This document shows, piece by piece, positions 15,250 through 36,848 of a stretch of 64,000 bases of DNA; position 1 is the first letter of the stretch; every line of letters starts with the position of its first letter. The stretch is taken from the NCBI RefSeq assembly GCF_000504305.1, contig NZ_KI632512.1:776388-840387 (forward strand), read 5' to 3'. Position numbers and translations under genes: made by a program. Under the pieces are notes generated by a model. It made no database searches. It saw only the letters and a program-made list of their open reading frames with translations, and was not told where the DNA came from. This DNA comes from Nitratidesulfovibrio termitidis HI1 (lineage in GTDB: Bacteria; Desulfobacterota; Desulfovibrionia; Desulfovibrionales; Desulfovibrionaceae).

Positions 15250-16042
15250 CGGCCAGTTCGCCCTTTTCCAGCAGCAGCAGGCGGCCCGCCCGTTCCGCCG
15301 CGCGGGGGTCGTGGGTGACCATGATGATGGTCTTGCCCATGGTGCGGTTCAGCCCGTCCATGAGGTCCAGGATTTCTCCGGCGGACACGCGATCCAGGTC
15401 GCCGGTGGGTTCGTCGGCCACCAGGATGTCCGGGTCGGCCACCAGGGCGCGGGCGATGGCGGTGCGCTGCTGCTGCCCGCCGGAAAGCTGGCCGGGGTAG
15501 TGATCCATGCGGTCGGACAGGCCCACCATGGCCAGCGCTGTGCGTGCCCGCTCCCGGCGTTCGCGCCCGGACAGGGGCGTTAACAGAAGCGGCAGTTCCA
15601 CGTTTTCCAGCGCGTTCAGCACGGGAATGAGGTTGTAGAACTGAAAGATGAACCCTACGCTACGGCTGCGCCAGCGCGCCAGGTCCGCATCGTCCAGGGT
15701 GGTGATGTCCGTGTCGCCCACGAAGACGGCCCCCGCGTCCACCCGGTCGATGCCCGCGATGAGGTTGAGCAGCGTGGATTTTCCGGAACCGGACGGCCCC
15801 ATGAGCGCCAGGAACTCGCCGGGGGCCACGGCCATGTTCACGTTGGTCAGCACCGGCACCACCTGCGCGCCGCGCCGGTAGGCCTTGGACACGCCTTCGA
15901 GCAGGATGGGCGGGCTGGCAGTACGCGGGGGCGCAAGGGAGGACGCGGCGCCAGAAGCCGCGCCGGACGCGGCATCCCTGTCCGGCGCACCGCCTTGCGC
16001 GGCGGCATGTGGAGGAACGGCGGAATCCTGCGCGCGGCTCAT
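15236..16042 (-). CDS. ABC exporter ATPase, LolD/MacB type
   Basis: The nucleotide-binding subunit that drives the two FtsX-type permeases. Walker A GPSGSGKST lies near residue 80, then a Q-loop (FIFQFYNLIPVLNALENVELPL, typical of LolD/MacB), signature LSGGQQQR and Walker B ILVADEPTGDLD, followed by the switch His in TMGKTIIMVTHD. About 40 Ala/Pro-rich residues precede the core. The start overlaps the adaptor stop by four bases (ATGA). All catalytic residues are present. Confidence 0.93.
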   Translation of the reverse strand: MSRAQDSAVPPHAAAQGGAPDRDAASGAASGAASSLAPPRTASPPILLEGVSKAYRRGAQVVPVLTNVNMAVAPGEFLALMGPSGSGKSTLLNLIAGIDRVDAGAVFVGDTDITTLDDADLARWRSRSVGFIFQFYNLIPVLNALENVELPLLLTPLSGRERRERARTALAMVGLSDRMDHYPGQLSGGQQQRTAIARALVADPDILVADEPTGDLDRVSAGEILDLMDGLNRTMGKTIIMVTHDPRAAERAGRLLLLEKGELADAHA

Positions 16043-17856: not shown

Positions 17857-18090
17857 ATGCCCAGCTTTGAAGCAGACAATCTCACGCTGCACAAGATAAA
17901 CGTCGCTCCCATGTTTCGCTGCACACGCTGCCACTTCGGCCCGCCGGACACCTCGTGGGCCGGGCAGAAGAACGGCGAGCACCGCCGGGTGCTCATCTGC
18001 CGCGCGTGCGGCGCCCGTGCCGTGGCCACCTTCCGCGTGGCGGCGGACAATTCGCGTTGGGAAATCCTGTCCGTGGAGGACATGGACTAG
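17857..18090 (+). CDS. Small zinc-ribbon-like hypothetical protein
   Basis: 77 residues from ATG 17857 (MPSFEADNLTLHKI); the upstream in-frame extension is Pro/Arg/Thr-rich and unlikely to be coding. Two CxxC pairs (RCTRC near residue 22 and CRAC near 49), separated by about 26 residues, are spaced like a zinc ribbon. I do not recognise a named family. It is monocistronic, divergent from the exporter operon and convergent with the histidine phosphatase operon. A nucleic-acid or protein-contact role would be usual for such a ribbon but is a guess. Confidence 0.6.
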   Translation: MPSFEADNLTLHKINVAPMFRCTRCHFGPPDTSWAGQKNGEHRRVLICRACGARAVATFRVAADNSRWEILSVEDMD

Positions 18091-18243
18091 CGGGACGGCG
18101 GCCCCGGCGGACATGCCATGGACGCCCGGCGTTTCGCCATCCACCCTGCCTGTCGCACCATCCCGCAGGGCTCGCAAAGTCCGCAGACGGGTGAGGATGG
18201 CGCGGCGTGCACCATGCCGCGCCAATAGTGTGGTGCGGGCTGT

Positions 18244-19143
18244 CTACGGTTGCCAGTCCGGCGACACGACGCTCCATGCCGCTGAAGCCCCGGAACCCGC
18301 TGACGTCGGCGCCGTGGCCGCAGCCGTACCGCCCCCTTCGGGGGCGTGGCGGCGCAGACGCACGCAATGCAGATGGCGCACCGGCAGGGTGAGCAGTTCT
18401 TCGCGGCCCATGTGGCCCAGCGCGCACAGCACGGAACGGATCAGCCCGGCGTGGCTCACGGCCACGATGACCGGGACATGGCCATGGCTGGCGCCACAGT
18501 CCGGAAGGCATTGCTGCCCGGCGGTGGCGTTTTGCCCCTCGGCACCTGCCGTCCCCACGCCCCTGCCCCCATTCCCTGGCCAGCCCCCCGTTCCGGAGCA
18601 GTCCCACCACATGGCGGCCAATGCCCGCAACCCGCGTGCGGCCACGTCCGCGCAGCATTCCCCCCCCGGCGGACGAAAGGTCCAGGGTTCGCGCCCGCGG
18701 CGCGCGTAGGCGTCGGGCCGGGCTTCCCGCACCTGCATCTGCACCTGTCCTTCCCATTCCCCCAGGTCCATCTCCGCCAGATCGTCCAGAATGGTGAGCG
18801 GGATGGCGGCCAGGGACCGCATGCATGACGTGTCCGGAGCATCCGGCGTGTCCGGAACCTCACCCTGCCCCAGCATGAGCCGGGCCGTTTCTCGCGCCCG
18901 TTGCAGCGGCGAGGCGTAGGCCCCCACCACGTGCAATCCTGCCAGACGCGGCCGCCACGCTGCCGCCCGCGCGCGGCCTTCCGTGGACAAGGGCACTTCG
19001 GTGCGGCCAATGTACCGGCGCGGCCCGTCGCCCATGTCCGTGGCCGCATGGCGGAACAGCAGAATGTCCGGCCCGATGCCCGGCAGGATGTTCGGCAGGG
19101 CGGCGGGTGGGGCGCCTGGCACGGGTACTGCCGGAACGGTCAT
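18244..19143 (-). CDS. Histidine phosphatase (phosphoglycerate mutase-like), last gene of the aldehyde oxidoreductase operon
   Basis: The start at 19143 overlaps the previous stop (ATGA); 14 upstream codons are not needed. The catalytic motif is LLFRHAATD, a variant of the usual RHGET with the nucleophilic His kept; the second His is in VIVAVSHAGLIRSVL and the acid in LAEMDLGEWEGQ. This matches the CobC/phosphoglycerate mutase-like branch acting on small phosphoesters. A Gly-rich insert lies near 195-225. Position in a cofactor-maturation operon suggests it removes phosphate from a cofactor intermediate or by-product; that is inference. Confidence 0.85.
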   Translation of the reverse strand: MTVPAVPVPGAPPAALPNILPGIGPDILLFRHAATDMGDGPRRYIGRTEVPLSTEGRARAAAWRPRLAGLHVVGAYASPLQRARETARLMLGQGEVPDTPDAPDTSCMRSLAAIPLTILDDLAEMDLGEWEGQVQMQVREARPDAYARRGREPWTFRPPGGECCADVAARGLRALAAMWWDCSGTGGWPGNGGRGVGTAGAEGQNATAGQQCLPDCGASHGHVPVIVAVSHAGLIRSVLCALGHMGREELLTLPVRHLHCVRLRRHAPEGGGTAAATAPTSAGSGASAAWSVVSPDWQP

Positions 19144-20714
19144 GGGTGGTTCCCGTCGTCTGCGGATTCCCGCACGGGACCACACTCAGGACCGTGCTCA
19201 GGACCGTGCCCCGTGGACGCGGGCGACCTGTCCGGCGCGGTGGCGGAGCAGGAAATGGCCAGTCCCGCCCGGGCGGTTTCTCCGGCCTGACTGACACCGC
19301 CAGTATCCGGTTCCCACGCAGGCATGCCCACGGACAGGGGATGCAGGATGTCCGCCAGCGGTCGTCCGGCCTCGCGCTCGATGCGCGCGCGCAGGGCCAG
19401 CGCCCGGCGCATCCGCCCTTCAATGGCGGCAGCCGCTTCCGGGTCGTGCCGCCATTGGGCCAATTTCTCGCCAAAGCGGCTCTTCACGTCCACCACGGTA
19501 TGGCAGCGCACCAGTTTGTCCGCGAAATAAACCACTTCCCGCTCGCTCAGGGGCTGGTCGTCGGCAAGGGTGGTATCCCTGTGCGCGCTGACGATGCCCG
19601 CCACACCGGAAAAACCCAGTTCGCGCAGCAGCGCGCCCCCGGCGGCCTCGTGGCGGGGCTGGCCCTTGGCGATGTCGTGCAGCAGGGCGGCGGCCTCCGT
19701 CAGTGCACTGTCGAGTTCGCTGTCCAGTTCGCTGTCCAGTTCGCCGTCCAGCCGTGCACCCGTGCCGGATGGTCCACCCGGCACGCGGTCCTGCCCGGCC
19801 ATGGTGCGCGCAGCATTCAACCCATCGGCCAGGCGCACGGCCACGGCGGCCACCCCCTCGGCATGGGTGATGCCGCCGGGCGGAACGGCCCGCACCGCCA
19901 GCAGCGTGCGCGCCTCCTGCGGGGTGGGCACGTCGCGGGTGGGCCAGTCGGCGCAGGCCGCGTGGTAATCGTCCGGGGTGTCCATATCGCGCAGGATGAA
20001 CCTGTCGGGCACGCAGACCTCTTGCAGGGCGTGCGCCCCCAGCCGGTGCAGCGCGCCGCGCAGGCCGCCACCGCCGCCATCGGCCAGAATGATCGGCAAT
20101 ACCGATGCATGCAGCAGCGGCGGATGCCCCCACTGTCCGTCGAACACCGGCATCAACACCCGGTCCGGGTGTGCGGCGGCGTGTTCCAGCAGCAGGCGCA
20201 CGGTCAGGGGACGCACCAGCGCGGCGTCCACCGGCAGCAGCAAGACGCCTGCCCCACCCCTTCCAGCAGCCCCGCCAAACTCAGCAGTCTCGTCGCCGCG
20301 CCCAACCACGGCTCCCAGCCCCGCGCGCACCGAGGAAAACATGCCTCCCTCGCGCCATGCCGGGTTGTGCACCGTGGCCGCGCCCAGCCGCGTGGCCTCC
20401 GCCGCCACCTCGTCCGCCCGATGTCCGGTGACCACCAGCACGTCGGACACGCCCGCCTGCCGGAACGTCTCCACGCAACGAGCCAGCACCGAAGCGCCGT
20501 GCAGGTCGAGCAGCGGCTTGAAGCCGGGAGCCATCCGCGACGATGCGCCCGCTGCCAGCACCACGCCGACAACGGGGAATGGAGAAAGCGAGGGTACGGT
20601 CACGCCGGAAGCAGCGGCCTGAACAGCCTCCCCCCTCCTCGACTGTTCGCCACTTTCGATTACATAGTCAGCATCTATCGAAACCGCCGAATCATTCACC
20701 GCTTCAGATGGCAT
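19140..20714 (-). CDS. MocA/MobA-like nucleotidyltransferase fused to an HD domain
   Basis: The ATG at 20714 has GGAG seven bases upstream and is preferred over TTG at 20735. The N-terminal half is a nucleotidyltransferase: VVGVVLAAGASSRM with the distal Lys (FKPLLDL), the acidic metal site LLLPVDAALVRP, and RDMDTPDDY. This resembles MocA, which makes the molybdopterin-cytosine dinucleotide cofactor used by Mop-type hydroxylases. The C-terminal half is an HD hydrolase (ITHAEGV...AALLHDIAKG). The two are joined by a linker with ELDS repeats (12-bp tandem, about 19707-19752). I recall this fusion as an NCBI family named after DVU_1551. Probable cofactor cytidylylation; HD substrate unknown. Confidence 0.85.
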   Translation of the reverse strand: MPSEAVNDSAVSIDADYVIESGEQSRRGEAVQAAASGVTVPSLSPFPVVGVVLAAGASSRMAPGFKPLLDLHGASVLARCVETFRQAGVSDVLVVTGHRADEVAAEATRLGAATVHNPAWREGGMFSSVRAGLGAVVGRGDETAEFGGAAGRGGAGVLLLPVDAALVRPLTVRLLLEHAAAHPDRVLMPVFDGQWGHPPLLHASVLPIILADGGGGGLRGALHRLGAHALQEVCVPDRFILRDMDTPDDYHAACADWPTRDVPTPQEARTLLAVRAVPPGGITHAEGVAAVAVRLADGLNAARTMAGQDRVPGGPSGTGARLDGELDSELDSELDSALTEAAALLHDIAKGQPRHEAAGGALLRELGFSGVAGIVSAHRDTTLADDQPLSEREVVYFADKLVRCHTVVDVKSRFGEKLAQWRHDPEAAAAIEGRMRRALALRARIEREAGRPLADILHPLSVGMPAWEPDTGGVSQAGETARAGLAISCSATAPDRSPASTGHGPEHGPECGPVRESADDGNHP

Positions 20715-20775
20715 TCCTCGCTCCGTGTCCGTCAACGATCCGGCGCGCCTTACGGCGGCTCAAACCTGCATGGGA

Positions 20776-21864
20776 TCAGGCCTGCATGGGCGGAATAGCG
20801 TGGCGCACCCGGCTGGCAGCCCGTGCCTGCACCAGTTCCGCCACGATGCTCACGGCTATTTCCTCGGGCGTTTCCGCCCCGATGTCCAGCCCGATGGGCG
20901 AATGCACCCGCTCGATGGCCGCGCGCGGGGTTCCCGCTTCTTCCAGCCTGCGGTACACGGCATCGCGCTTGCGGCGGCTGCCGATCATGCCCACGTAACG
21001 GGCCGGGGTGCGCAACGCACTGGCCAGCACCTCGCCATCATTGCGGTGCCCGCGCGTGACGATGACCACGTAGCAGTCCTCGTGCATGCCGAGATCCGCC
21101 AGCCAGTCACCGCCGGGGGTGACGCAGCGCACCTCGTCCGCGCCGGGCAACCGATCGGCTTTGGCGAAATCGGGCCGGTCGTCCAGCACGGTGACCCGGA
21201 ACCCGGCCAGCGAGGCCATCAGGCCCACCTGCCGTCCCACGTGCCCGGCCCCGGCAATGACCACCCGCCCTGGCGAGGCCACCGGGTCGGCCAGCAGGGA
21301 CAGGCCCCCCGCCTCCACGCACAGCGGCCCGCTGGCCGTGGCCACGGCGTCGCGCAATCCGGCCAGCGCACCGGGGTCCAGCGCCAGGTCTCCGCTGGCG
21401 TCCGCCCCCTGCCCTTCGCCCACCAGCAGCAGGCGGCGGCAATCCGGCGCGGCATCGGGCCGCAGTACGTTGACCAGCACGCAGCGCCGCCCCTGCATGG
21501 TCAGGCGATCCGTTTCGTGCAGCAACGGCGCCAGTTGCGGACAGGACGCGGCGCGCAACGGTTCCACGTACAGCCGCACCCTGCCCCCGCAGATCATGTC
21601 CGACCCGGCGGCCTCGTCGGCGGACAGGTCGAAGGTGAGCAGGCGGGCCAGCCCGTCGCCCAGGGCCGTGCGGCAGGCATCCAGCACGCGGGCTTCCAGA
21701 ATGCCCCCGCCCACGGTGCCCTCGAAGGATTGGCCGTCGCCGCGCACGAACAGTCGCGCCCCGGCCATGCGCGGGGCGGACCCTTCCGCCGTGACGATGG
21801 TGGCCAGCACGGCAACGCCGTCGCGCTCCAGCGCATCGGCCAGTTGTCCAAAGAATTGCGTCAT
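20776..21864 (-). CDS. XdhC-family molybdenum hydroxylase maturation factor
   Basis: 362 residues from ATG 21864, which overlaps the ligase stop (ATGA). The N-terminal XdhC/CoxI domain shows VLATIVTAEGSAPRMAGARL and GTVGGGILEARV. The C-terminal Rossmann domain has VVIAGAGHVGRQVGLMASLAGF and VLDDRPDFA. XdhC proteins bind the molybdenum cofactor, promote its sulfuration and insert it into apo-hydroxylases. This agrees with the aldehyde oxidoreductase gene in the same operon, so the client is very probably that enzyme. Confidence 0.9.
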   Translation of the reverse strand: MTQFFGQLADALERDGVAVLATIVTAEGSAPRMAGARLFVRGDGQSFEGTVGGGILEARVLDACRTALGDGLARLLTFDLSADEAAGSDMICGGRVRLYVEPLRAASCPQLAPLLHETDRLTMQGRRCVLVNVLRPDAAPDCRRLLLVGEGQGADASGDLALDPGALAGLRDAVATASGPLCVEAGGLSLLADPVASPGRVVIAGAGHVGRQVGLMASLAGFRVTVLDDRPDFAKADRLPGADEVRCVTPGGDWLADLGMHEDCYVVIVTRGHRNDGEVLASALRTPARYVGMIGSRRKRDAVYRRLEEAGTPRAAIERVHSPIGLDIGAETPEEIAVSIVAELVQARAASRVRHAIPPMQA

Positions 21865-23108
21865 GGTCGTGCCCCCTTGGCAAGGGTAATGATATCCCAG
21901 TGGTTTCCGTAACGGCGAATGCGCCCCTGAACCGCCCCCAGTCGCCGCAGCGGGCTGCCGCAACGGCATGGCGGCGGCAGCATGGCCGCCGCATCACCCG
22001 TGCGGTAGCGCAGCAGCACCATGGCCTCTGCGGCAAGGGTGGTCACCACCACCTCGCCGGTCTGCCCGTCCGGCAGGGGAACTCCGGTAACCGGATCGAC
22101 GATCTCCACGAAAATGTCCGCCTCGCGCAGGTGAAAGCCGTGATGGGCGGCGCATTCCACGCCACCGCCGTATCCGGTTTCGGTCATGCCCCAGTGGTCG
22201 AATACCTCGCAGCCCAAAGCCGCACGCACCCTGTCCGCCGTTTCCGGCGGGGTGGCCTCCGCGCTCAGCAGGCAGGTGCGCGGGCGTGGTGCCAGTCCGG
22301 GGTCTGCCAGCACGGCGTCGGCAAGGGCACGGGCCTGGGTGGGCGTGGCCACGAACACCTGCGCCCCGGTTTGCGCCAGTCGAGCGGCATGTTCCGCCCC
22401 GCTGGCCGCCGGGGGCAGCAGCACCGGCTGCATACCCGCGCGGTGCAGGCCACGGTCCAGCAGATCGCCCACGCTGTCGGGCCGCTGGCCGGGCATGAAG
22501 ATGGCCACCACGTCACCGGGGCGGCACAGGGTGGTCATGCCCACCGCAAAGAAGTCCACGGTGCGTTCGATGTCCGCATCGCTGAAGCGCAGTCGCTTGG
22601 GTGCCCCCGTGCTGCCCGATGTCGGCAGAGTGACGATGCGGGCCACGGCGTCGTCGGCCACGCGCAGCAGGGCATCGCCCCCCTCGCGCAGGTCGTCGGG
22701 CGTGGTGAAGGGCAGCGCGGGCAGGTCATCCAGCGAAAGGGGGCGGGAATGAGGCCGGGAATGAGAAATACCCAGCCCCGCCAGCCGGGTGCGGTAGAAC
22801 GGCGCATCCAGGGCGCGGTGTACCGCCTCGCGCAGCAGGTCGCCCTGCCGGGCGCGCACCATGGCCGGTGAAAGCGCAGCAAGGGGGATGGACAGCCGCG
22901 CGGCCAGCCACGGGTCCAGCGGCGACCGGGGCGTCTCCTGCCCGGTGGGTGCGAGGCGTGAAGCGCCTACGTGCTCCCCGTGCTCCCCATGTTCCCCATG
23001 CTCCCCATGTTCACCATGTTCACCATGTTTCGTGGACACGGCACACGTGGGGCACGGCGCGGGCACGCCATCGTCCGGCAATGCAGGGGCCGCGAATTGC
23101 CGGTTCAT
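21861..23108 (-). CDS. AMP-forming ligase-like adenylating protein lacking the C-terminal lid
   Basis: 415 residues from ATG 23108, overlapping the radical SAM gene stop. Core motifs of the PaaK/acyl-CoA ligase family are present: phosphate loop TSGSTGAPKRL, a WGMTETGYGG motif and YRTGD. The chain stops soon after the hinge (LGAVQGRIRRYG), so the mobile C-terminal domain that normally carries the catalytic Lys and completes CoA transfer is absent. The N-terminus has a cysteine pair (PCPTC) and a run of HGE units from a 9-bp tandem repeat (22971-23032). It may activate a carboxylate or sulfur carrier by adenylation only. I recall this as the DVU_1553-like family; no function is known to me. 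Confidence 0.8.
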   Translation of the reverse strand: MNRQFAAPALPDDGVPAPCPTCAVSTKHGEHGEHGEHGEHGEHGEHVGASRLAPTGQETPRSPLDPWLAARLSIPLAALSPAMVRARQGDLLREAVHRALDAPFYRTRLAGLGISHSRPHSRPLSLDDLPALPFTTPDDLREGGDALLRVADDAVARIVTLPTSGSTGAPKRLRFSDADIERTVDFFAVGMTTLCRPGDVVAIFMPGQRPDSVGDLLDRGLHRAGMQPVLLPPAASGAEHAARLAQTGAQVFVATPTQARALADAVLADPGLAPRPRTCLLSAEATPPETADRVRAALGCEVFDHWGMTETGYGGGVECAAHHGFHLREADIFVEIVDPVTGVPLPDGQTGEVVVTTLAAEAMVLLRYRTGDAAAMLPPPCRCGSPLRRLGAVQGRIRRYGNHWDIITLAKGARP

Positions 23109-24808
23109 GCGCCCTCTCCTTCGGCTGAACCGACCGGCCCGCCGCCCGCCGCGCCAGCACCTTCCGGACCTTCGCCACCTCCCGCGCATCCCACGCCGGA
23201 CGGCGCACCATTGCGATGCAACGGCGTGCCGTCCGCCGATGTCAGGTTCCACGCGCAGAACGGCACCATGCGCCCGTCTGGCGCGGCCACATGGATGCAG
23301 CAGCCGCGCAGCCGTTCGGTGTCCAGGGTCCAGGCATCCTGAAAGGCCATGCCGGACACGGTGAAGCGTCGCCCGGCCCGCGCCAGAAAGCGCTCGAAAT
23401 CGTCACGCGGCGGCGTGGCGGATGTGTTCCCACTCGTGGCGCCCGCGCCAGCAGGCGGACCGGGCGCCTTCCACTGGCGGCGCACGAAGGCCCGCGCCCG
23501 CTCCGCTCCCAGTGCGGCGGGGATGGGAGCCGGGGAGATGCCCCCCGTTCTCGTGCCATTCCCGCCAGTCCCGCAGCAGGCCCCGCCCGCCGGTTCCAGC
23601 CTGCCGTCCTCGTGGGCCATGAACGTGCCGCTGAAGGAGCACTGGGCATGCTCGCACCCCGGCGGATGCAGGTGGGACAAGGGAATCAGTCCGCCGGTCT
23701 GGTCGCGCACCGCGCGCATGACCTCGGGCAGGGTGATGCGGGCTGCCTCGCGCGCGCTGTCCCCTGCACCACCGGGTGCGCCACCAAACGCAACGCCATC
23801 AGCACCGCCGGGCGCGCCGAAACCCTCGTACCGGCCAAAGAAGCTCACCGGCTGGAAATGCGCCCCGCGCACCACGGGCACCCGCGCAAGGCCAAAGCGC
23901 ACGATATCGCCCAGACAATGGTCGTTAACCCCGCGCGCCACGGTGCATACCAGCACCACGCCCAGCCCCGCCGCCGCGCAGGCGTCCACCGCGCGCACCT
24001 TGTCCGCGTGCAGGGGCAGGCCGCGCAGCCGCGCGGTGGCCGCGTCGTCCGGGCCGTCGAATTGCAGGAACACGGAATCCAGCCCGGCGGCGGCAAGGCG
24101 CGCGGCATAGCCCGCCTCGCGCGCCAGACGCAGGCCGTTGGTGTTCAGTTGCACGAAGGGATAGCCCAGGCCGCGCACGGCGGTGACTAGTTGCGGCAGG
24201 TCGTCGCGCAGGGTGGGTTCCCCGCCGGAAAGCTGGATGTTGGCATCGCCCGCTCGCGGGCGCAGCACGGCCAGCCGGGCAACCAGTTCACCGAGTGTGG
24301 AATCGTCCTCGCGGCGGGATTCCCGGGCATCACCCTTGTTCCACCCACTCTCCGCGTCCTCACCCTGCCTGCCCGATTGCCCCCCCACTCCTGCTGACGC
24401 GAAACACACCGGGCAGCGCAGGTTGCAGCGCTGCGTCACCTCGATCAGCAGGGTGCAGGTGTGCTGGCCATGGTCCGGGCACAGCCCGCAATCATTGGGA
24501 CAACCGAGTTCGCGCTCCGTGCCGGGACCGCGCCGGGCCGTGGGAATCTTGGGGCGCACCCAACCGGTGAAGGCAGGCTCGCCCCGCCACACCGGTGCGG
24601 AAAATTCGCCGTGCTCCGGGCAACGTTTGACCAGCAGCACCGTATCGCCCACGGCCACCCGCTCCGCCGGGGCCGGACCAAGGCACACCGGGCACACGCT
24701 GGCGGTGCGGGCCAGCACCCGGCCTTGCGCCGTTGTCATCGCTTCGCCCCCGGCCTGCCCCGCTACGGAGCAGCCGCAATTCACAAGGGAGTTGCCACGC
24801 CGGGCCAT
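23105..24808 (-). CDS. Radical SAM protein of the aldehyde oxidoreductase operon
   Basis: The start is set at ATG 24808, five bases after the preceding stop; ATG 24739 is an alternative. The longer form adds a CGCS motif near residue 11. Features in order: a zinc-ribbon-like N-terminus (CPVCLGPAP...KRCPEHG), CPNDCGLCPDHGQHTC, the radical SAM motif CNLRCPVC (about 127-134), a GGEPTLR motif and a Cys-containing C-terminal part (RLRGCCIHVA). It matches a family I remember from NCBI as TrsS, which in other species can be a selenoprotein. It probably makes or modifies a cofactor or peptide radical-chemically; substrate unknown. Confidence 0.82.
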   Translation of the reverse strand: MARRGNSLVNCGCSVAGQAGGEAMTTAQGRVLARTASVCPVCLGPAPAERVAVGDTVLLVKRCPEHGEFSAPVWRGEPAFTGWVRPKIPTARRGPGTERELGCPNDCGLCPDHGQHTCTLLIEVTQRCNLRCPVCFASAGVGGQSGRQGEDAESGWNKGDARESRREDDSTLGELVARLAVLRPRAGDANIQLSGGEPTLRDDLPQLVTAVRGLGYPFVQLNTNGLRLAREAGYAARLAAAGLDSVFLQFDGPDDAATARLRGLPLHADKVRAVDACAAAGLGVVLVCTVARGVNDHCLGDIVRFGLARVPVVRGAHFQPVSFFGRYEGFGAPGGADGVAFGGAPGGAGDSAREAARITLPEVMRAVRDQTGGLIPLSHLHPPGCEHAQCSFSGTFMAHEDGRLEPAGGACCGTGGNGTRTGGISPAPIPAALGAERARAFVRRQWKAPGPPAGAGATSGNTSATPPRDDFERFLARAGRRFTVSGMAFQDAWTLDTERLRGCCIHVAAPDGRMVPFCAWNLTSADGTPLHRNGAPSGVGCAGGGEGPEGAGAAGGGPVGSAEGEGA

Positions 24809-24813
24809 GCCGC

Positions 24814-25293
24814 CTAGCCCTCGCGCGGCAGCGTGGGGTCCACGCCGTAAGCCGCCAGCACTTCGAACATCTTGCCGTGCGCTTCCAGCAGCAAGCCGTG
24901 GCATTTGCCGAAATCGGGCCGACCGCCACCGCTGTCGCCCAAGATGGCCCCGCACGATATGCCCCCGCTGGCGGCGGTGCGTTCGCGGAACCATTCGGCG
25001 AATTCCGTGGTCATGGCCTCCAGCGCATCGTGGGGCTCTTCCCCGTCGTGGCCCTTGGCCAGGCACAGGCCCATGGCCATGCACCCGCCCAGCAGGATGC
25101 CGCAGGCGCCTTCTGCCAGACCGAAGCCCCGGCACAGCCCGCCAGCAGCGCGCACCGCGTCCCGTCCGTCGCCCAACCCGTCACCGGACGCATCGCGCCC
25201 CTGCACGTCCAGCATCAGCTGGACCATGATCTGGGTACAGCAGTACCCGGCGGCCCCAAGGGCCAGTACCCGTCCGAACGCATCGTCGCTCAT
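24814..25293 (-). CDS. C-GCAxxG-C-C family protein
   Basis: 159 residues with the cysteine pattern of the C_GCAxxG_C_C family: YCCTQIM near residue 18, GGLCRGFGLAEGACGILLGGCMAMG (about 52-76) and a late ISCGAI and GKCHG. These small proteins probably bind a metal or cluster and often travel with redox enzymes or radical SAM genes. The start overlaps the methyltransferase stop (ATGA) and the gene ends just before the radical SAM start, so it is tightly coupled to both. I recall the family name DVU_1555. Role unknown. Confidence 0.85.
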   Translation of the reverse strand: MSDDAFGRVLALGAAGYCCTQIMVQLMLDVQGRDASGDGLGDGRDAVRAAGGLCRGFGLAEGACGILLGGCMAMGLCLAKGHDGEEPHDALEAMTTEFAEWFRERTAASGGISCGAILGDSGGGRPDFGKCHGLLLEAHGKMFEVLAAYGVDPTLPREG

Positions 25294-26246
25294 GGCGTAT
25301 CCCCCCGTTGTGCATCATCGTCACGCCGCGCCAGCAGCAGCGCGTAGCCGGGCCGCCCGCCGCCACCGCCACCGCAGCCGAACAGATCCGACAGTTCCGC
25401 CCCGGCAAACAGCAGCCTGCCCGCCAGTTCCGCCAGCAGGCGGCTGTGATCCTCGAACGCCAGCACCGTGAACCCGGCTCTGCGCAGCATGCCTTCCATG
25501 TCCGCGCGCGGGATGGCCCCGGCGCGGCAGGAAAGGATGCGGGAGTGCGGACCGGAGCGCCGGGGTTCGCTGCCGTCCGTGCAACCGTGCTCACAGCCTT
25601 CCTCACAGCCGTCTGGGCCACCGTCTGGGCCACGCCACACGGCAGCCGCGCGGCCCGGACGCACGTACAGGTCGGTCCAGACCAGCACCCCGCCGGGACG
25701 CAGCACCCGCGCCAGTTCCGCCAGCACGGTCCCGCGCTGCGGGAACACCGAGAGCACGCATTCGCAAAACACGCCATCCAGGCTGGCGGTGCGCAGCGGC
25801 AGACCGGGGGCATGCTGTGCGGATGCCTGCGCGTCCGGCCCGGCATCCGCCTGAATCAGGGGCATCTGGCCATTGCGCATCCGCGCCTCGGCCAGCAGGC
25901 TGGCGGAAAGGTCCAGCCCCACCGCCGTCATGCCCCCCTGGCGCAGCAGGGCCACGGTTTCGCCGGGGCCGCAGCCCAGGTCCGCCACCCGCGCGTCATG
26001 AGGCAGATCCGCCAATTGCCGCGCCAGTTCCAGCGCGCGCATGGTCAGGGCCAGTCCGCCGGGACGCAGCGTGGCCCCGGCCACCGCGCGCAGGGCCGGG
26101 TGCTCCCACGGCCCGCGCAGCGCCTGAGGCTCCCACGGTTCGAGCGGACTGGTGACCGAGCCACCATCACCCGCAGGCGCGGCGACCGCCTTCGGCGCGG
26201 GAGGCCCCTCAGGCCCGGAAACATCGACGGCGGACGGCACGCTCAC
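25290..26246 (-). CDS. SAM-dependent methyltransferase of the aldehyde oxidoreductase operon
   Basis: 318 residues with a class I methyltransferase fold: motif I VADLGCGPGETVALL (about 88), motif II VGLDLSASLLAEAR, and VFCECVLSVFPQRGTVLAELARVLRPGG as the later motifs. An unusual cysteine-bearing loop (CEEGCEHGC) sits near 215. The last part contains a Gly-run (FGCGGGGGG). It overlaps both neighbours by ATGA. The family (DVU_1556-like, as I recall) occurs with the radical SAM and C-GCAxxG proteins, so it may act on the same intermediate. The methyl acceptor is unknown. Confidence 0.85.
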   Translation of the reverse strand: MSVPSAVDVSGPEGPPAPKAVAAPAGDGGSVTSPLEPWEPQALRGPWEHPALRAVAGATLRPGGLALTMRALELARQLADLPHDARVADLGCGPGETVALLRQGGMTAVGLDLSASLLAEARMRNGQMPLIQADAGPDAQASAQHAPGLPLRTASLDGVFCECVLSVFPQRGTVLAELARVLRPGGVLVWTDLYVRPGRAAAVWRGPDGGPDGCEEGCEHGCTDGSEPRRSGPHSRILSCRAGAIPRADMEGMLRRAGFTVLAFEDHSRLLAELAGRLLFAGAELSDLFGCGGGGGGRPGYALLLARRDDDAQRGDTP

Positions 26247-28981
26247 TTGTCCTCCAGCAACTGTTCCACTTCAAGCATCTTGCCCAGCGCCAGGGCCTCG
26301 TCCACCAGCACCTGCCCGCAATCCGGACAGGTCAGCAGGCGCACGTTGAAGGTGCTGCCAAGGTAGGTCAGCTCCACCGACAACGGACGCGGCGTGCCGC
26401 CGCAGGCGCAGGCCCAGTTGCCGGACGCGGGCAGATAGGCCGGTTCGTGGGGCGATTCCTTCCATCCCCCGGCGGGCGTCCCCTGCGGCAGCACCATGCG
26501 GTGGGCATAGGCCTGCCGGATGGCGTAGGCGGGCGCGGCATCGCCCCCTACTCCAGCCTCAGTTCCGTCCCCAGTTCCGCCCCCCGCTGCGCCGCCGGTT
26601 CCACTTTCCACGCCGCCGGTCACGGGTTCGTACCCCGCCCAATGCGTGACGCGTACCCGGCGCAGGCAGGCCAGACGCATCCCTGTATCGGTGTTGATAA
26701 AATAGCGGCCCGTATGTTCGGCCTCGGCGATTGCACCGCGCAGATCATCATCAAGGATGCGCCGCCGCTCCATCACCTGCCGCATATCCTGCGTGATGCG
26801 CAACGCCACGTCCCGCGCGATGTCGTCCGTGGCTCCGGGCGGGGTTTCTCCGTACACCTCACGCAGCAGGTGGTCGCGCAGCCGGGCCCGGTTCTCCTGC
26901 CGGGCGGTGATGTGCGGTCCGGGCGCTGCCGGGTCCGGATTGCCGCCGGGCAGCGGCGGCAGCAGCAGGTCCAGCAGGTGACTGGCAGGACTGCCCGCCT
27001 CGGCCAGCCGGTCGCGGCACATGGCGCAGTAGGTGACGAAGGGCAGGTCCGAAGCATCGGCCCTGCGCTGGATGACGGTACGGGCAAGATCGGGATCGGC
27101 CTCGGCCATCAGGCCGCCGTAGCCACAGCATTCGGTGAGTTGGCCGGTCAGGTCCGGCTCGTGCACCGCCACCCCGCGCGCGGCCAGCAGCCCGCGCACC
27201 GTGGCCCGCAAGGGTTCATCCCCGCGGGCGGCACAGGGGTCATGCAGCGTGAGCGCCGCCGGAACGGTCGCCAACTGTCCGCTGACGCCGTACTCCGCCA
27301 GCACGACCCACAGCGGGGTCTGGGGCAGGTCGGGCAACAGCGTGCGCAACGTGGTGGCACAGGACGGGCACCCCACCACCAGCGTGGGGCGTCCCATCGC
27401 GTTCCACCCGTCGCGCAGTTCCTCGGCGGCGGCAGCGGCCAGGTCGTCGCGCCCGGCCCACAGCGCGGGCGCGCCGCAACAGCGCAGGGCAATGCCCGTG
27501 CCGCCGGGCAACCGGTCGTCCAACAAGGACCACGCCTGCGCGACTCTGTCCGGGGCGGACGCCGCAAGCTGGCAGCCGGGCAGGAACAGCCAGGCGCAGG
27601 TCGTGGCCCCCGCCGGGGCGCGCAGCAGCGCGGCATGCGGCCCGTTGCTGAAGGCCATGTCGTCCAGCGCGAATTCGTGGGTGGACGGGGGCATCTTGCC
27701 GTCATGCACCAGGGTGCGCCGCGCCTCGTGGCACAGCGGAGCCATGTCGAACCCGGTGGGGCACACCGTGCCGCACAGCCCGCACAGGCTGCACGAATTG
27801 ATGAACCGGTTGGCCTGATGCACGCCCTTGACGATGGCCAGGTTGTTGTAGATGCGCCGGGCGTGCTTCTTGGGGTAGTCACCGTACTTTTCCAGATACG
27901 GGCACACCTTGACGCATTCCAGACACTGGCATTGCAGACAGCGGGCCGCTTCGGCCCTGTATGGGGTGTCAGCGGCGACGGCATCGGGCGCAAGATTGCC
28001 CCCGCCGTTGCCGTTACCTGTCGCCACCCCCTCTCCTGCGGACGGCAGCGCGGGCAATGCCACGGGCGGCATGGCCTCCACACCTTCAAGGCTGGTGAAC
28101 AAGCGCGTTTCGAACGGCCCCTGCCGTTCGCGGGCCGCCGCGAGCGACACGCCGGTCAGGTGACGGTCCATGGATGTGGCGGCATGACGGCCATCGGCGG
28201 CCTCGTCGATGCAGCGCGGTACACCTTCCACGGGCCAGCCGCCGCAGAACACGCCGGGCAGATCGGGGTGGGCCAGGGTCAGCGCATCGCACCGGTCGCG
28301 GTCCGGCAGGCCCAACGCGCTGGCAGCAGCCGGGCTCCACGCCAGAAACACCGCCCCGTGCGCGGCGCGCATCTCTTCCAGCACCGCCGCCGTGGGGGCC
28401 ACGGGCGCGGCAAAGCGCACCTTGAGCCCGGCCAGCCGGTCCAGTTCCCTGCGCAGGGCATCCGGCGGCAGCACGTCCTGGGGGATGGCTGCAAGACGGC
28501 CAGCAGCGGCCATCCTGGCGGCACCTTCCGCACCACCTTCGCCCCCACGCTCTCCTCCGTCATCCAGCCACCCGGCCAGGGTCACCGCGTGGCCCTTCTT
28601 CGCCAGATCCCAGGCCACGGTCAGCGCGGCCAGCCCGCCGCCCAGCACGGCGGCGCGCAGCCCCCGCCCCGGCAAGGGGCGTGGGTCTGCCGCCGGAACG
28701 GTCAGCGCGGCGCAGGCCCGCTCCAGCGCGCCCACGGCAATGGTTCCACCCGCTTCATCACGCAGGCAGGCCGCCTGACAGGGGGCCTCGCACAGCCGGG
28801 CCAGCACGCCGGGCAGGGGCATGGTGCGTTCCAGCACGCCGCGCGCCTCGCGCCAGCGGCCTTGCGCCACATGGTCCAGAAAGGCACGCGCATCTACATG
28901 CAGCGGGCACGCCGCCTGACAGCGGGGCGGTTCTTCCTGTATGCAGCGCGACTCCCAGTCGCGTAACGGAGTCTGGTCCAT
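26243..28981 (-). CDS. Multi-cluster redox protein: GltD-like N-terminus, ferredoxin and CCG domains, extra C-terminal redox domain
   Basis: ATG 28981 has GGGGAGG upstream; the extra 33 upstream codons look non-coding. About 912 residues. The N-terminus has two cysteine sets (CIQEEPPRCQAACP and CEAPCQAACLRD) as in GltD-type Fe-S subunits, then a dinucleotide fold (AVLGGGLAALTVAWDL). A dicluster ferredoxin follows (CLQCQCLECVKVCP and CSLCGLCGTVCP), then a heterodisulfide-reductase-like CCG part (TECCGYGG, CAMC). The last 170 residues add a separate domain with CACGG and CPDCG, resembling what I recall as the DVU_1557 redox family, so two genes may be fused here. Probable electron donor for maturation or acceptor for the oxidoreductase. 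Confidence 0.8.
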   Translation of the reverse strand: MDQTPLRDWESRCIQEEPPRCQAACPLHVDARAFLDHVAQGRWREARGVLERTMPLPGVLARLCEAPCQAACLRDEAGGTIAVGALERACAALTVPAADPRPLPGRGLRAAVLGGGLAALTVAWDLAKKGHAVTLAGWLDDGGERGGEGGAEGAARMAAAGRLAAIPQDVLPPDALRRELDRLAGLKVRFAAPVAPTAAVLEEMRAAHGAVFLAWSPAAASALGLPDRDRCDALTLAHPDLPGVFCGGWPVEGVPRCIDEAADGRHAATSMDRHLTGVSLAAARERQGPFETRLFTSLEGVEAMPPVALPALPSAGEGVATGNGNGGGNLAPDAVAADTPYRAEAARCLQCQCLECVKVCPYLEKYGDYPKKHARRIYNNLAIVKGVHQANRFINSCSLCGLCGTVCPTGFDMAPLCHEARRTLVHDGKMPPSTHEFALDDMAFSNGPHAALLRAPAGATTCAWLFLPGCQLAASAPDRVAQAWSLLDDRLPGGTGIALRCCGAPALWAGRDDLAAAAAEELRDGWNAMGRPTLVVGCPSCATTLRTLLPDLPQTPLWVVLAEYGVSGQLATVPAALTLHDPCAARGDEPLRATVRGLLAARGVAVHEPDLTGQLTECCGYGGLMAEADPDLARTVIQRRADASDLPFVTYCAMCRDRLAEAGSPASHLLDLLLPPLPGGNPDPAAPGPHITARQENRARLRDHLLREVYGETPPGATDDIARDVALRITQDMRQVMERRRILDDDLRGAIAEAEHTGRYFINTDTGMRLACLRRVRVTHWAGYEPVTGGVESGTGGAAGGGTGDGTEAGVGGDAAPAYAIRQAYAHRMVLPQGTPAGGWKESPHEPAYLPASGNWACACGGTPRPLSVELTYLGSTFNVRLLTCPDCGQVLVDEALALGKMLEVEQLLEDK

Positions 28982-29048
28982 GCCATACCTCCCCTTTCCG
29001 GCCCTGTCGGCAAACCGGACGGAGCGTACGGCACAACCCCACGCCCCG

Positions 29049-29088
29049 AAAAATGATGCCCCGGGGCGGAGCGCGTCCACCCCGGGGC
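29049..29088 (-). terminator. Attenuating terminator after mop
   Basis: A 9-bp stem GCCCCGGGG/CCCCGGGGC with a 13-nt loop (29058-29088), followed on the minus strand by ATCATTTTTCGG. It sits between mop and the redox-protein gene of the same operon, so it likely lowers expression of the maturation genes relative to the enzyme. Confidence 0.7.
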
Positions 29089-29101
29089 CGTGTTCATCGT
29101 C

Positions 29102-31819
29102 TTACGCGCCCTTCAGGCCCGCCAGCACCTTTTCAGGCAGGGCGGGCAGGTGGCGGATGCGCACGCCGCAGGCGTGATAGATGCCGTTGATGATGGACGC
29201 GTGCGGCGCGCTGAGCGGCAGCTCGCCCACGCCCGACGCGCCGAACGGACCGTCGCCGCGCGGCGTTTCCACGTAGATCAGTTCGATGTTGTCGGGAATG
29301 TCCTTGATGTACGGAACGCCCGCGCCCGCCATGGTGGCGTGCTTCTTGAGGTCCTCGTAATCTTCGGACAGGGCCAGGCCCACGCCCTGGGCCAGGCCGC
29401 CGTACAACTGGCCGTCGGTGACCAGCTTGTTGCAGACCTTGCCGATGTCGGCCACCAGGGTCAGCTTGTCCACCGTGGTCTTGCCGGTGGCCAGTTCCAC
29501 GGCCACTTCAGCCATGAACACGCCGTACATGTACGAGGTGAAGGGCTTGCCCTGCCCGTTCTCGTCGCAGTGGGTGCCCGCCGCCGTCCACGCGCCGCGA
29601 TGCTTGGTGGCGATCTTTTCGTCCACCATCTCCTGGTAGGTGCGGAAGCCGCCGGGCTTGCGCATGGCTTCCACCAGGTTCTCGCAGGCCACGCGCACGG
29701 CGTTGCCGGTGACGTACTGCGACCGGCTGCCGCCCGCCGGACCGCTGTTGGGGGCCTTGCTGGTGTCGTTGAGCACCAGGCGGATGTTCTGCGGGGCGAT
29801 GCCCAGCGGGCGCAGCGCCTCGTGGGCGGTGCCCAGCGAACCCATGTCTGCGCCCTGGCCGTGGTCTTCCCAGCAGTTGTAGATGGTCACGGTGCCGTCG
29901 GGATTCAGTTCGGCGTCGGCTTCCGAGGTGTCCGGCCCGTCAAGGCCGCAGCCGTACACGCCCACGGCAACGCCCACGCCCTTCTTGACCGCCGCCGTGG
30001 AACCGGCCTTGGCCGCATCCAGCGCCGCCTTGTACTTGGGCCGCAGGATATCGATCATTTCCGGCAGGCTGTACACTTCCGGGTCCTGCCCGGTGGGGTT
30101 GGTGTCGCCCTTGCGGTACACGTTGATGTAGCGCAGTTCCAGCGGGTCCATGCCCATCTTTTCGGCCAGTTCGTCCATCAGCACTTCGGTCGGGAACTCG
30201 ATTTCCGGCGCGCCGTAGCCCCGGAAGGCGGCCCCCCAGGCGTGGTTGGTGCACACCGTGCGGCCCTGGCCCCGGATGTTGGCGATGCCGTAGCCCGCGC
30301 CGCCGAACTGTGCGCCGCGCAGGGTCAGCAGGTCGCCGAACTCGGAATACGGGCCGTGGTCCACGGTCCAGTCGGTTTCCAAGGCCATGATCTTGCCGGT
30401 CTTGTCGGCGGCGTAGCGCGCGTTGACGAAGAACGGCGAACGCTTGCCGGTGTAGTTCTGCTGCTGGCGGTAGTTGTAGCGCAGGTGCACCGGACGGCCG
30501 GTGGCCATGGCCGCCACGCCCACCAGGGCTTCCATGGTGGGGCTGAACTTGTAGCCGAAGGTGCCGCCCGCGGGGTTCTGCACCATGACGATCTTTTCCG
30601 GCTCAAGGCCAAGGCCGGGGGCGATCATGTACAGGTGCAGGTGCAGGCCGATGGACTTGGAGTGGATGACCAGACGCCCTTCGCCGTCGGTGTAGGCGAA
30701 GCCCACGTCCGGCTCGATGGGCAGGTGCGGCTGGCGGCTCACGTAGTAGTCGCCTTCCACCACCACGTCGGCGCCGTCGAAGATGGGCTTGGTGTCCGCG
30801 CCCTTGGCGATGTTCTGGGTGAAGTACACATTGGGCGTGCCGGGATGGATCTCGATGGCGTCCTCGGCCATGGCCGCCGGGGCGCTCATGTAGGCGGGCA
30901 GTTCTTCCAGCTGCACCTTCACCTTTTCGGCGGCGGCGCGGGCGTTCTTTTCGCTGTCGGCGCAGACGATGGCGATGGCGTCACCGTACTGGAACACCTT
31001 CTCGTCGCACAGGATGGGCCGGTCCCAGCCGTCACCCTTGTTGGAGGGGAAGGTGATCAGGCCGGTGATGCGGTTCTTGCCCTTGACGTCCTTGTGGGTA
31101 AGCACGCTGTGCACGCCGGGCATCTTCAACGCTTCTGCGGTGTCGATGGACAGGATGTTCGCATGCGACACTTCCGCCTGCACCAACGCAAGGTGCAGCG
31201 CATTGGAGGGCATCTTCAGGCCCAGGTCCGCACCGTAGTCGCAGGTGCCCGTTACCTTGGCAATGGCGGAGGGGCGGGGGTACTTCGATCCCCAGATGCG
31301 GCCATCGGCGGGGATCTTGAAGCAGAGTTCGTCGGCGCTCATTTCGCCGCGCAGCACCTTGGCGGCATCCATCACGGCATCGACCAGAGGCTTGTAGCCG
31401 GTGCAGCGGCAGACGTTGCGGTGTTTCTGGAACCAGTCGCGCACATCGCTGCGGCTGGGGTTCTTGTTTTCTTCCAGCAACTGCCTGGCCGAGACGATGA
31501 ACCCGGGCGTGCAGAAGCCGCACTGCGCACCGCCGTGGGCCGTCCACGCCAGTTGCAGCGGGTGCAGGCAGTCGGGGCTGCCCACGCCCTCGATGGTGGT
31601 CACCGAAGCCCCGTCGGGCAGACGGCGCATCTTGTACGCGCACGAACGCACCACCTTGCCGTCAAGGATGACGCTGCACGCGCCGCACTGGCCTTCGCCG
31701 CAGCCCACCTTGACGCCGGTGAGCAGCAGTTGTTCGCGCAGCACGTCCGCCAGCGTCGCTTCCGGATCGACGACAAGGTTGCGGGGTATGCCGTTGACGA
31801 TGAAATGCTTGTTGATCAT
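29102..31819 (-). CDS. mop: Aldehyde oxidoreductase (molybdenum hydroxylase), Mop type
   Basis: 905 residues from ATG 31819 (GGAGG upstream). It oxidises aldehydes to acids with a molybdopterin-cytosine-dinucleotide centre and two [2Fe-2S] clusters in one chain. The plant-type cluster cysteines are 40, 45, 48 and 60 and the second set 100, 103, 137 and 139, identical in number to the D. gigas enzyme. The base-catalyst Glu lies in GVGELPLS (Glu866, D. gigas Glu869). Molybdopterin loops GTFGYKF and RGYGAPE are present. No signal peptide, so cytoplasmic. Second gene of the operon after the MoeA-like gene, with the maturation genes downstream. Confidence 0.95.
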   Translation of the reverse strand: MINKHFIVNGIPRNLVVDPEATLADVLREQLLLTGVKVGCGEGQCGACSVILDGKVVRSCAYKMRRLPDGASVTTIEGVGSPDCLHPLQLAWTAHGGAQCGFCTPGFIVSARQLLEENKNPSRSDVRDWFQKHRNVCRCTGYKPLVDAVMDAAKVLRGEMSADELCFKIPADGRIWGSKYPRPSAIAKVTGTCDYGADLGLKMPSNALHLALVQAEVSHANILSIDTAEALKMPGVHSVLTHKDVKGKNRITGLITFPSNKGDGWDRPILCDEKVFQYGDAIAIVCADSEKNARAAAEKVKVQLEELPAYMSAPAAMAEDAIEIHPGTPNVYFTQNIAKGADTKPIFDGADVVVEGDYYVSRQPHLPIEPDVGFAYTDGEGRLVIHSKSIGLHLHLYMIAPGLGLEPEKIVMVQNPAGGTFGYKFSPTMEALVGVAAMATGRPVHLRYNYRQQQNYTGKRSPFFVNARYAADKTGKIMALETDWTVDHGPYSEFGDLLTLRGAQFGGAGYGIANIRGQGRTVCTNHAWGAAFRGYGAPEIEFPTEVLMDELAEKMGMDPLELRYINVYRKGDTNPTGQDPEVYSLPEMIDILRPKYKAALDAAKAGSTAAVKKGVGVAVGVYGCGLDGPDTSEADAELNPDGTVTIYNCWEDHGQGADMGSLGTAHEALRPLGIAPQNIRLVLNDTSKAPNSGPAGGSRSQYVTGNAVRVACENLVEAMRKPGGFRTYQEMVDEKIATKHRGAWTAAGTHCDENGQGKPFTSYMYGVFMAEVAVELATGKTTVDKLTLVADIGKVCNKLVTDGQLYGGLAQGVGLALSEDYEDLKKHATMAGAGVPYIKDIPDNIELIYVETPRGDGPFGASGVGELPLSAPHASIINGIYHACGVRIRHLPALPEKVLAGLKGA

Positions 31820-31912
31820 GAGCCTGGCCTCCGTGGATCTGTCCGTTGCATGTTGCGCGGGCGGGCATGCCGCCCTTTCCGTCGCGGGCGGATGATTCGC
31901 CCTTTCCTGCAC

Positions 31913-31930
31913 GGGCGGCGTGCGCCGCCC
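31913..31930. other. Perfect GC palindrome between the MoeA-like gene and mop
   Basis: GGGCGGCG-TG-CGCCGCCC. It lies in the 136-nt intercistronic gap, which also has two imperfect copies of GCCCTTTCC...CGGGCGG. No T-run follows on the minus strand, so it is more likely an RNA-stability or processing hairpin than a terminator. Confidence 0.45.
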
Positions 31931-31955
31931 CTCCCGTTATGCCGGCCCGGCTGGG

Positions 31956-32999
31956 CTACGCGCCCTTGCCGAACGGGCAGGCGGGATACCGGCATTCCTG
32001 GCAGCCGAGGCACAGGCCGCCATGACCGAGCGCGGTGATGTCCTCCCGCGTGACGGCAAGCCCGGCCAGCAGCCGGGGCGCCACGAGGTCGAATATCGAC
32101 GCCCGGTGATACATGACACACCCGGGAAGCCCCATGACGGGCACTTCGCCGAGATACGCCAGCATGAACATGGAGCCCGGCAGCACCGGAGCCCCGTATG
32201 CGACGACGCGCGCCCCCGCGGCCCTGATGCCCGCCGGGGTCTGGTCGTCCGGGTCCACGGACATGCCGCCGGTGACGACGATCATGTCCGCCCCTTCGTC
32301 CACCAGTTCGCGGATGGCCCGTGCCGTGGCGTCACGGTCGTCGGCCACCAGCACCTGGCGCACCACCTCGCTGCCGAGGTCGGCGAACTTGCGGCGCACC
32401 ACCGGGCCGAACTTGTCCTGGATGCGGCCGTGGAACACCTCGCTGCCCGTGGTCACCATGCCAACACGGGCATGGCGGAAGGGCAGCACGGAGACCACCG
32501 GCGCGCCGTCAAGGGCGCGTTCGGCCTGGTGCAGCAGTTGTTCGTGAACGATGAGGGGGATGACGCGCATGCCCGCCACCATCTGGCCCGTGCGCACCGC
32601 GCTCAGGCCGTGCAGCGTGGACACGGCGAGTTCGCCCAGGCCGTTCAGGCGGCCAAGGGCGGGAACATCGACGTGCAACAGCCCGTCGTGTTCGGCGACA
32701 AGGTTGACCCGCCCCTCGCACCTGGCTTCCGGGGCCACGCCCGCACCGCCGACGGCGCGCGCCAGACGCATGGCGGCATCGTCTTCGTGCAGTTGGCCCG
32801 CGCCAAGGCGCAGGGCGTAGACATGCTCCTTCCCCATTTGCAGAAGGAGGGGGATGTCCGCGGGGGCGATGATGTGCCCCTTGCGAAACCCCGGCCCCTT
32901 TTCGACGCCGGGGATGATGCGCGTCATGTCGTGACACAGCATCATGCCCACGGCTTCGTGGACCGGGACGATCGAAAGACCGTGCTCGTGACCTTGCAT
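31956..32999 (-). CDS. MoeA-like molybdopterin-binding protein with a C-terminal cysteine motif
   Basis: 347 residues from ATG 32999; upstream in-frame codons look non-coding. The MoCF/MogA-type domain is clear: GMVTTGSEVFHGRIQDKFGP, MIVVTGGMSVDPDDQTP and PVLPGSMFMLAYLGEVPVMGLPG. The N-terminal part (SIVPVHEAVGMMLCHDMTRIIPG) is shorter than in true MoeA. The C-terminus CLGCQECRYPACPFGKG holds four cysteines (CxxCxxCx4C), suggesting a metal or cluster site not found in MoeA. First gene of the aldehyde oxidoreductase operon. It may load Mo into, or carry, the cofactor destined for Mop. Confidence 0.85.
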   Translation of the reverse strand: MQGHEHGLSIVPVHEAVGMMLCHDMTRIIPGVEKGPGFRKGHIIAPADIPLLLQMGKEHVYALRLGAGQLHEDDAAMRLARAVGGAGVAPEARCEGRVNLVAEHDGLLHVDVPALGRLNGLGELAVSTLHGLSAVRTGQMVAGMRVIPLIVHEQLLHQAERALDGAPVVSVLPFRHARVGMVTTGSEVFHGRIQDKFGPVVRRKFADLGSEVVRQVLVADDRDATARAIRELVDEGADMIVVTGGMSVDPDDQTPAGIRAAGARVVAYGAPVLPGSMFMLAYLGEVPVMGLPGCVMYHRASIFDLVAPRLLAGLAVTREDITALGHGGLCLGCQECRYPACPFGKGA

Positions 33000-33122
33000 G
33001 TGCTTCTGCTCCCGTGAAGGGACAGGCAGCATTCCGGCGTTGCCGCAGTCATGTGTGGTGCCCTCTCGGACGCAAAGAGAAGGGCATGGCCGGACTGGGT
33101 ATGCAGGCACTCCTAGTGTGCA

Positions 33123-33152
33123 TATGTATCAGCCCCGACAGGTCACGGTCAA
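33123..33152 (-). promoter_or_regulatory. Likely promoter of the aldehyde oxidoreductase operon
   Basis: Minus-strand TTGACC (33147-33152), 18 bp, then TACATA (33123-33128), giving a leader of about 115 nt. It is the best match in the divergent gap between this operon and the formate dehydrogenase genes. Confidence 0.4.
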
Positions 33153-33230
33153 CGTACAACGCGTGTTAATTCAAGCATGACGCCATGTTACAATGAGTGC
33201 TCGCTCAACCCGCCACCAACAGTACGAAGT

Positions 33231-33255
33231 GAATGCGTATTTTTACGGGGCATTC
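33231..33255. promoter_or_regulatory. Bulged palindrome in the divergent mop/fdh gap
   Basis: GAATG-CGTA-TTTTT-ACG-GGG-CATTC: outer arms GAATG/CATTC and inner arms CGTA/TACG sharing a T-rich centre. It lies about 100 bp upstream of the leftward promoter and 200 bp upstream of the rightward one, so it could be a shared operator. Apart from this and the two promoters, 33000-33753 shows no gene; a GC-rich 270-nt leader precedes fdhA. Confidence 0.35.
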
Positions 33256-33457
33256 GCTCATGGAAAGATATTTGCTGGTAATCATTGGGTCTGCCACACC
33301 CTGATTTGGGACAAGAACCAACCAGAACATGCCAAACATGATGATTTTCGACTTAAAAATTACCATAAGCGACCATAACAAACAGCCACATATTCCCCCC
33401 TGTGACAAAGCCCACCTATATGCTTCATTTAACCTACCGTTTTCTATTGATAAATTC

Positions 33458-33485
33458 TTGCATGCGCCACAAACTGTGCTACTAT
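33458..33485 (+). promoter_or_regulatory. Possible promoter of the first formate dehydrogenase operon
   Basis: TTGCAT (33458-33463), 16 bp, then TACTAT (33480-33485), in the AT-rich part of the divergent region. It predicts a leader of about 265 nt before fdhA, whose distal half is very GC-rich and could fold; no known riboswitch was recognised. Confidence 0.4.
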
Positions 33486-33753
33486 GCCATGAAAGACATG
33501 ATGGTTGCTGGCCCCTGCGCCAGTTCCCCGCAGCCCCAGGGTCGTACCGGGCGCGCGGCGCCAGCAGGCGCCCGTGTCCGCCCAACTGCCTGCGGAGCCG
33601 CGACGGCGCCCATTCCCGCGCACGCCCGGCGGCATCGTGTCGTTTCTCCTTCCCGCAGCGAAGGGGGCGCGCACCGCGCGCATGGTTTCGCGGGTACAGA
33701 ACAAGGTCCACAGGACTTCCGGTCCTGTGAAGGGCTTTAACAAGGAGTGGAAC

Positions 33754-36795: not shown

Positions 36796-36803
36796 CCGGA
36801 ACA

Positions 36804-36830
36804 GGGCGCGCCCCGCCGCGGGGCGCGCCC
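36804..36830 (+). other. Intercistronic hairpin between fdhA and fdhB
   Basis: A perfect 11-bp stem GGGCGCGCCCC/GGGGCGCGCCC with a 5-nt loop and no T-run, lying in the 53-nt gap just before the fdhB ribosome site. It probably stabilises or marks a processing site in the mRNA rather than ending it. Confidence 0.6.
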
Positions 36831-36848
36831 CCTCCAAGGAGCACTACG

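Follow-up and report, generated by a model that had tools for sequence, protein, structure and literature searches.

Gene content and near-obligate radical SAM partners of the molybdenum aldehyde oxidoreductase operon in Nitratidesulfovibrio termitidis HI1

The window, a 64,000-nucleotide stretch of DNA from Nitratidesulfovibrio termitidis HI1, contains a ten-gene operon on the minus strand (32,999 to 18,244) that includes the gene for the molybdopterin-dependent aldehyde oxidoreductase Mop. With a probability of about 0.5, this is the usual Mop operon found in sulfate reducers, in which a module that loads the molybdenum cofactor is combined with a separate Trs pathway module working with Mop. 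The original prediction, that the cofactor or the enzyme receives a further modification, is not supported, and for the cofactor it is contradicted by what is reported for the Mop of Desulfovibrio gigas, which is encoded within the same cassette. That contradiction, together with a sister clade of the module in genomes that lack Mop, makes two submodules likely. Mop is almost never encoded without the module of radical SAM protein, ligase and methyltransferase, which bears on the cellular partner and the substrate of the enzyme.

The ten minus-strand genes and their families, as first assigned, were borne out by matches to Pfam and NCBIfam models. The first gene in the order of transcription (31,956 to 32,999, start ATG at 32,999) encodes a MoeA-like molybdopterin-binding (MoCF) protein that matched PF00994 at 87 bits, above the cut-off, and no NCBIfam model at its cut-off. 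It is followed by Mop (29,102 to 31,819; NF045668, 1697 bits against a cut-off of 1100), a redox protein (26,243 to 28,981; NF045663 at 853 bits and NF045645 at 77 bits, both above cut-off), a SAM-dependent methyltransferase of the DVU_1556 family (25,290 to 26,246, with a GTG start at 26,246 or 26,240; NF045667, 206 bits against 155) and a C-GCAxxG-C-C protein of the DVU_1555 family (24,814 to 25,293; NF045669, 128 bits against 103). The remaining genes encode the radical SAM protein TrsS (23,105 to 24,739; NF045646, 563 bits against 490), a PaaK-like AMP ligase of the DVU_1553 family (21,861 to 23,108; NF045666, 394 bits against 300), an XdhC-family aldehyde oxidoreductase maturation factor (20,776 to 21,864; NF045664, 353 bits against 350), a MocA-like NTP transferase with a fused HD domain, of the DVU_1551 family (19,140 to 20,714; NF045665, 387 bits against 315; PF12804 and PF01966), and a CobC-like histidine phosphatase (18,244 to 19,143; PF00300, 120 bits; TIGR03162, 88 bits, below its cut-off). 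The genes are tightly packed as had been described, but exact ATGA overlaps, said to be present at most junctions, occur at about half, four of the nine: methyltransferase/C-GCAxxG-C-C protein, TrsS/ligase, ligase/XdhC and MocA/phosphatase. The junction between the redox protein and the methyltransferase is either a GTGA overlap or a 2-nt gap, and at the remaining four the genes are separated by about 136, 120, 74 and 40–61 nt.

The NCBIfam families of the DVU_1551–1557 cassette and TrsS cover eight of the ten genes, the redox protein with two models, while neither the MoeA-like protein nor the phosphatase scores above an NCBIfam cut-off. Because curated models exist, several of them named after the D. 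vulgaris genes DVU_1551–1557, the cassette is already catalogued at the family level. A search of the available literature found no description of the function of the five partner proteins (redox protein, methyltransferase, C-GCAxxG-C-C protein, TrsS and ligase), and a search with the D. vulgaris locus tags found no functional study. The citation given for TrsS is Haft and Tolstoy 2025, mSystems, which PMC13188914 lists among its references. An Rfam search of positions 18,000–37,000 of the window gave no match. A formate dehydrogenase alpha subunit gene on the plus strand (33,754–36,795) adjoins the operon and is transcribed divergently from it; its in-frame TGA is taken to encode selenocysteine (motif HQARV-U-HSPTV). 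Past the other end of the operon lies an apparent ABC-type export operon, identified by eye, on the minus strand (14,098–17,409; permease, ATPase and membrane-fusion-like protein).

Mop contains the Pfam domains Fer2, Fer2_2, Ald_Xan_dh_C, MoCoBD_1 and MoCoBD_2 in one chain, giving two 2Fe-2S domains and the molybdenum domains, with no FAD family among the Pfam matches. Assignment as a selenium-dependent xanthine dehydrogenase was rejected, the score with TIGR03311 being 451 bits against a cut-off of 830. The enzyme shares 73–74% identity with the crystallised proteins 1SIJ from D. gigas and 1DGJ from D. desulfuricans, the former being the first enzyme of the xanthine oxidase (XO) family with a crystal structure. 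A chimeric query located the genomes from which the crystallised enzymes come. Mop from genome G015 was identical to 1SIJ at 906 of 906 residues and Mop from genome G412 to 1DGJ at 900 of 902, and both genes lie within this cassette. The D. gigas enzyme is reported to contain an ordinary molybdopterin cytosine dinucleotide (MCD); its structure is known at 1.28 Å, the equatorial ligand is described as oxo and not sulfido, and catalysis is said not to require a sulfido (PMC10223205). The cofactor state is taken from the literature for D. gigas only. Since the plain cofactor comes from a species with the same genes, the five partners are probably not cofactor modifiers.

Hidden Markov models were built from the window proteins and mapped over fetched loci of relatives. 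Loci from Desulfobacterota, from Desulfosporosinus (Bacillota), from Chloroflexota and from a MAG of the Actinomycetota contained the core of Mop, redox protein, methyltransferase, C-GCAxxG-C-C protein, TrsS and ligase, and a Synergistaceae MAG had most of this core; this recurrence of gene order and content across phyla is far beyond chance. The XdhC, MocA, phosphatase and MoeA-like genes varied in position or were absent among the loci of relatives. Genomes with and without Mop were compared, as the original prediction had proposed, and Mop was almost always accompanied by TrsS. Among 119 genomes of the family, 70 contained both Mop and TrsS, 3 Mop only (G027, G052 and G112), 2 TrsS only as counted (G001 and G115, the latter with Mop in fragments) and 44 neither (Fisher p 2e-26, inflated by shared ancestry). 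The corresponding counts for 296 genomes of the phylum were 28, 1, 8 and 259 (Fisher p 6e-31, inflated in the same way). TrsS rows just below the cut-off in the family (G086 and G095) and partial matches below it in the phylum (G154 and G403) were counted as present. The single phylum genome with Mop and no TrsS (G320) has a redox-protein match of 826 bits and a ligase match just below the family cut-off. Because shared ancestry inflates the Fisher p-values, a comparison was made within genera, where 12 of the 14 with both Mop-positive and Mop-negative members were fully concordant for TrsS and the two discordant genera rest on poor assemblies (G112, 820 contigs; G052, 54% complete). The strict coupling that had been proposed therefore stands as near-obligate co-occurrence, stronger than could be seen from the window. 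TrsS was found in 0 of 13 family genomes with XO-like matches but no Mop, so the module is not a general MCD maturation system. Several second Mop copies have no adjoining module and in three genomes (G044, G071 and G096) the module lies apart from Mop, indicating that it can act in trans.

This coupling is one-way, because a sister clade of the module occurs in genomes without Mop. In the TrsS tree eight such genomes formed a group of their own apart from the Mop-linked rows (SH-aLRT 92); two rows labelled MOP (L239 and L243) come from two of these eight, and the grouping was unaffected by L073 (the second copy for G212) and by redundant rows. The ligase tree gave the same split, as did the methyltransferase tree at low support. 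In a ninth Mop-less genome, G312, TrsS is carried by a 4.9-kb contig and groups with the Mop-linked rows. When all nine were searched for a MoCoBD_1 gene none was found in G001, G154, G187, G212 and G230; these five of the eight sister-clade genomes contain no XO-family gene. The neighbourhood of the Mop-less modules looks catabolic, with B12-binding and RACo proteins and TRAP-transporter-like genes, or HGD-D/BcrAD proteins. Recurrent neighbours include families that by eye resemble sigma-54 regulators, ABC transporters and formate dehydrogenases. The neighbour families are broad single-linkage clusters that do not name a pathway, and the neighbours beyond the cassette are too poorly conserved to name one. 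By eye, a tungsten aldehyde oxidoreductase-like family was identified from sequence near Mop in 11 of 97 loci (for example L130:6324-8300), and in one locus (L258, G155) several molybdopterin oxidoreductase-like genes were seen to surround a dicluster redox protein and a protein distantly resembling TrsS. Another locus, in G001 (L078), contains two tandem TrsS-like genes, a DUF5714 protein and a ligase, with no Mop.

TrsS has the metal-ligand motifs described for the lipid synthase Tes (rubredoxin-like, N-auxiliary and radical SAM), and these are kept in 99–100% of the Mop-linked rows. Some members of the TrsS family NF045646 contain selenocysteine; a search of the module for it revealed only in-frame TGA codons at the C-terminal end of TrsS, apparently ordinary stops. 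The redox protein comprises a Fer4_20/Rossmann part, a 4Fe-4S dicluster, a CCG domain, a domain of about 90 residues and a zinc ribbon (DUF7479). It is a fusion in which the 60-residue ribbon (DUF7479/DVU_1557) is joined to the redox protein, while in most relatives the redox frame ends before the ribbon. The domain of about 90 residues gave a confident structure model (pLDDT 90.7); a RelE-like fold was considered for it and not used, as the matches were weak (E 0.04 or worse). The AlphaFold2 model of the C-GCAxxG-C-C protein had a pLDDT of 89.6, and a PDB search with its sequence returned nothing convincing. The ligase has no PaaK-type acyl-CoA ligase C-terminal domain and extends 17 residues past the end of the model, compared to a median of 104 in Mop-linked relatives. 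The truncation described in the original prediction is thus real but derived, being common to a few loci, mainly of Desulfovibrionaceae, while in most relatives the protein continues for about 100 more residues at the C-terminus.

We infer the division into two roles, and likewise the electron route and the pathway described here. The MoeA-like protein, the MocA-HD protein, XdhC and perhaps the phosphatase would load ordinary MCD into Mop. The redox protein, methyltransferase, C-GCAxxG-C-C protein, TrsS and ligase would not build the cofactor, and would instead provide a small aldehyde/carboxylate pathway or an electron route served by Mop. TrsS and the methyltransferase may convert some carboxylate or related metabolite, Mop would oxidise an aldehyde to the acid, the ligase may adenylate and so activate a carboxylate, and the electrons would pass to the iron-sulfur redox protein. 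The plain D. gigas cofactor, the 12 concordant genera, the indications of action in trans, the sister clade with its catabolic-looking neighbours and the tungsten aldehyde oxidoreductase-like family argue for two modules. The C-terminal domain kept by most ligases favours a pathway, and its loss in this lineage argues against one. In D. vulgaris, Mop has been placed with ethanol metabolism (PMC10920352), a role that alone would not explain the module.

A tentative alternative is that Mop depends for its function on the Trs module, through a small molecule that the module makes or an activation step that it carries out, and that unrelated enzymes depend on the sister module in the same way; if so, the first crystallised enzyme of the XO family had an overlooked obligate partner system. 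Another reading, which we consider doubtful, is that Mop is activated, protected or repaired by the module, for instance through dithiolene reduction or help with metal insertion, with no lasting modification left behind. Such a role is consistent with the near-obligate one-way dependence of Mop on a module able to act in trans and with the metal- or redox-protein appearance of the C-GCAxxG-C-C and redox proteins, and inactive forms of D. gigas Mop and a dithiolene-based activation chemistry have been described (PMC10223205). However, the sister module is present in genomes without any XO-family enzyme, and the ligase and methyltransferase have no obvious place in repair.

Cofactor synthesis typically involves radical SAM proteins, methyltransferases, ligases and NTP transferases, all of which are encoded here, and the module could make a diffusible small redox cofactor that accepts electrons from Mop and is used by other enzymes in the sister clade. 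Unlike xanthine oxidase, Mop has no FAD domain, and flavodoxin is described as no more than a putative partner in the cell, although it does accept electrons in vitro (PMC10223205). No product of the module is known, and XdhC and MocA are the usual companions of molybdenum hydroxylases and need no such carrier; this explanation is unlikely. The original proposal, in which the molybdenum cofactor or its ligand is covalently modified, is highly improbable: the strict coupling to Mop and the presence of a radical SAM protein and a methyltransferase would suit it, but the D. gigas reports are at odds with a stable methylated, thiolated or selenated cofactor. They do not contradict a labile one, and a modification lost on purification, or carried by an intermediate only, would escape crystal structures. 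The closest solved relative of TrsS, MJ0619, also speaks against it, as this protein is a lipid synthase whose earlier role as a pterin methylase could not be corroborated (PMC9433317). For that reason pterin chemistry cannot be deduced from the name 'HMPTM' carried by the zinc-ribbon model.

When the module was compared with known systems, the best PDB match of TrsS was this lipid synthase, Tes (MJ0619, 7TOL; E 5e-66), with which it shares the motifs CX2C/CX2H, CX3CX2CX2H and CX3CX2C. The alignment lies mainly over the first half of the protein and the gene neighbours differ; TrsS scored 292 bits with the Tes model NF045702, below its cut-off of 450, and was not assigned as Tes. The model of the C-GCAxxG-C-C protein superposed on split-Soret cytochrome c (1H21) with a Z score of 10.4 over 140 residues, the next match being 3.8, at 14% identity, and the common fold shows no common function. 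The loci of the crystallised Mop enzymes from D. gigas (1SIJ/1VLB) and D. desulfuricans (1DGJ) contain the same cassette in the same order as the window, with MocA undetected in L199 and XdhC undetected in L200, while both are present in the operon here. Compared to those two clusters, the operon of N. termitidis differs in having a ligase without the C-terminal domain and a redox protein fused to the DVU_1557 zinc ribbon.
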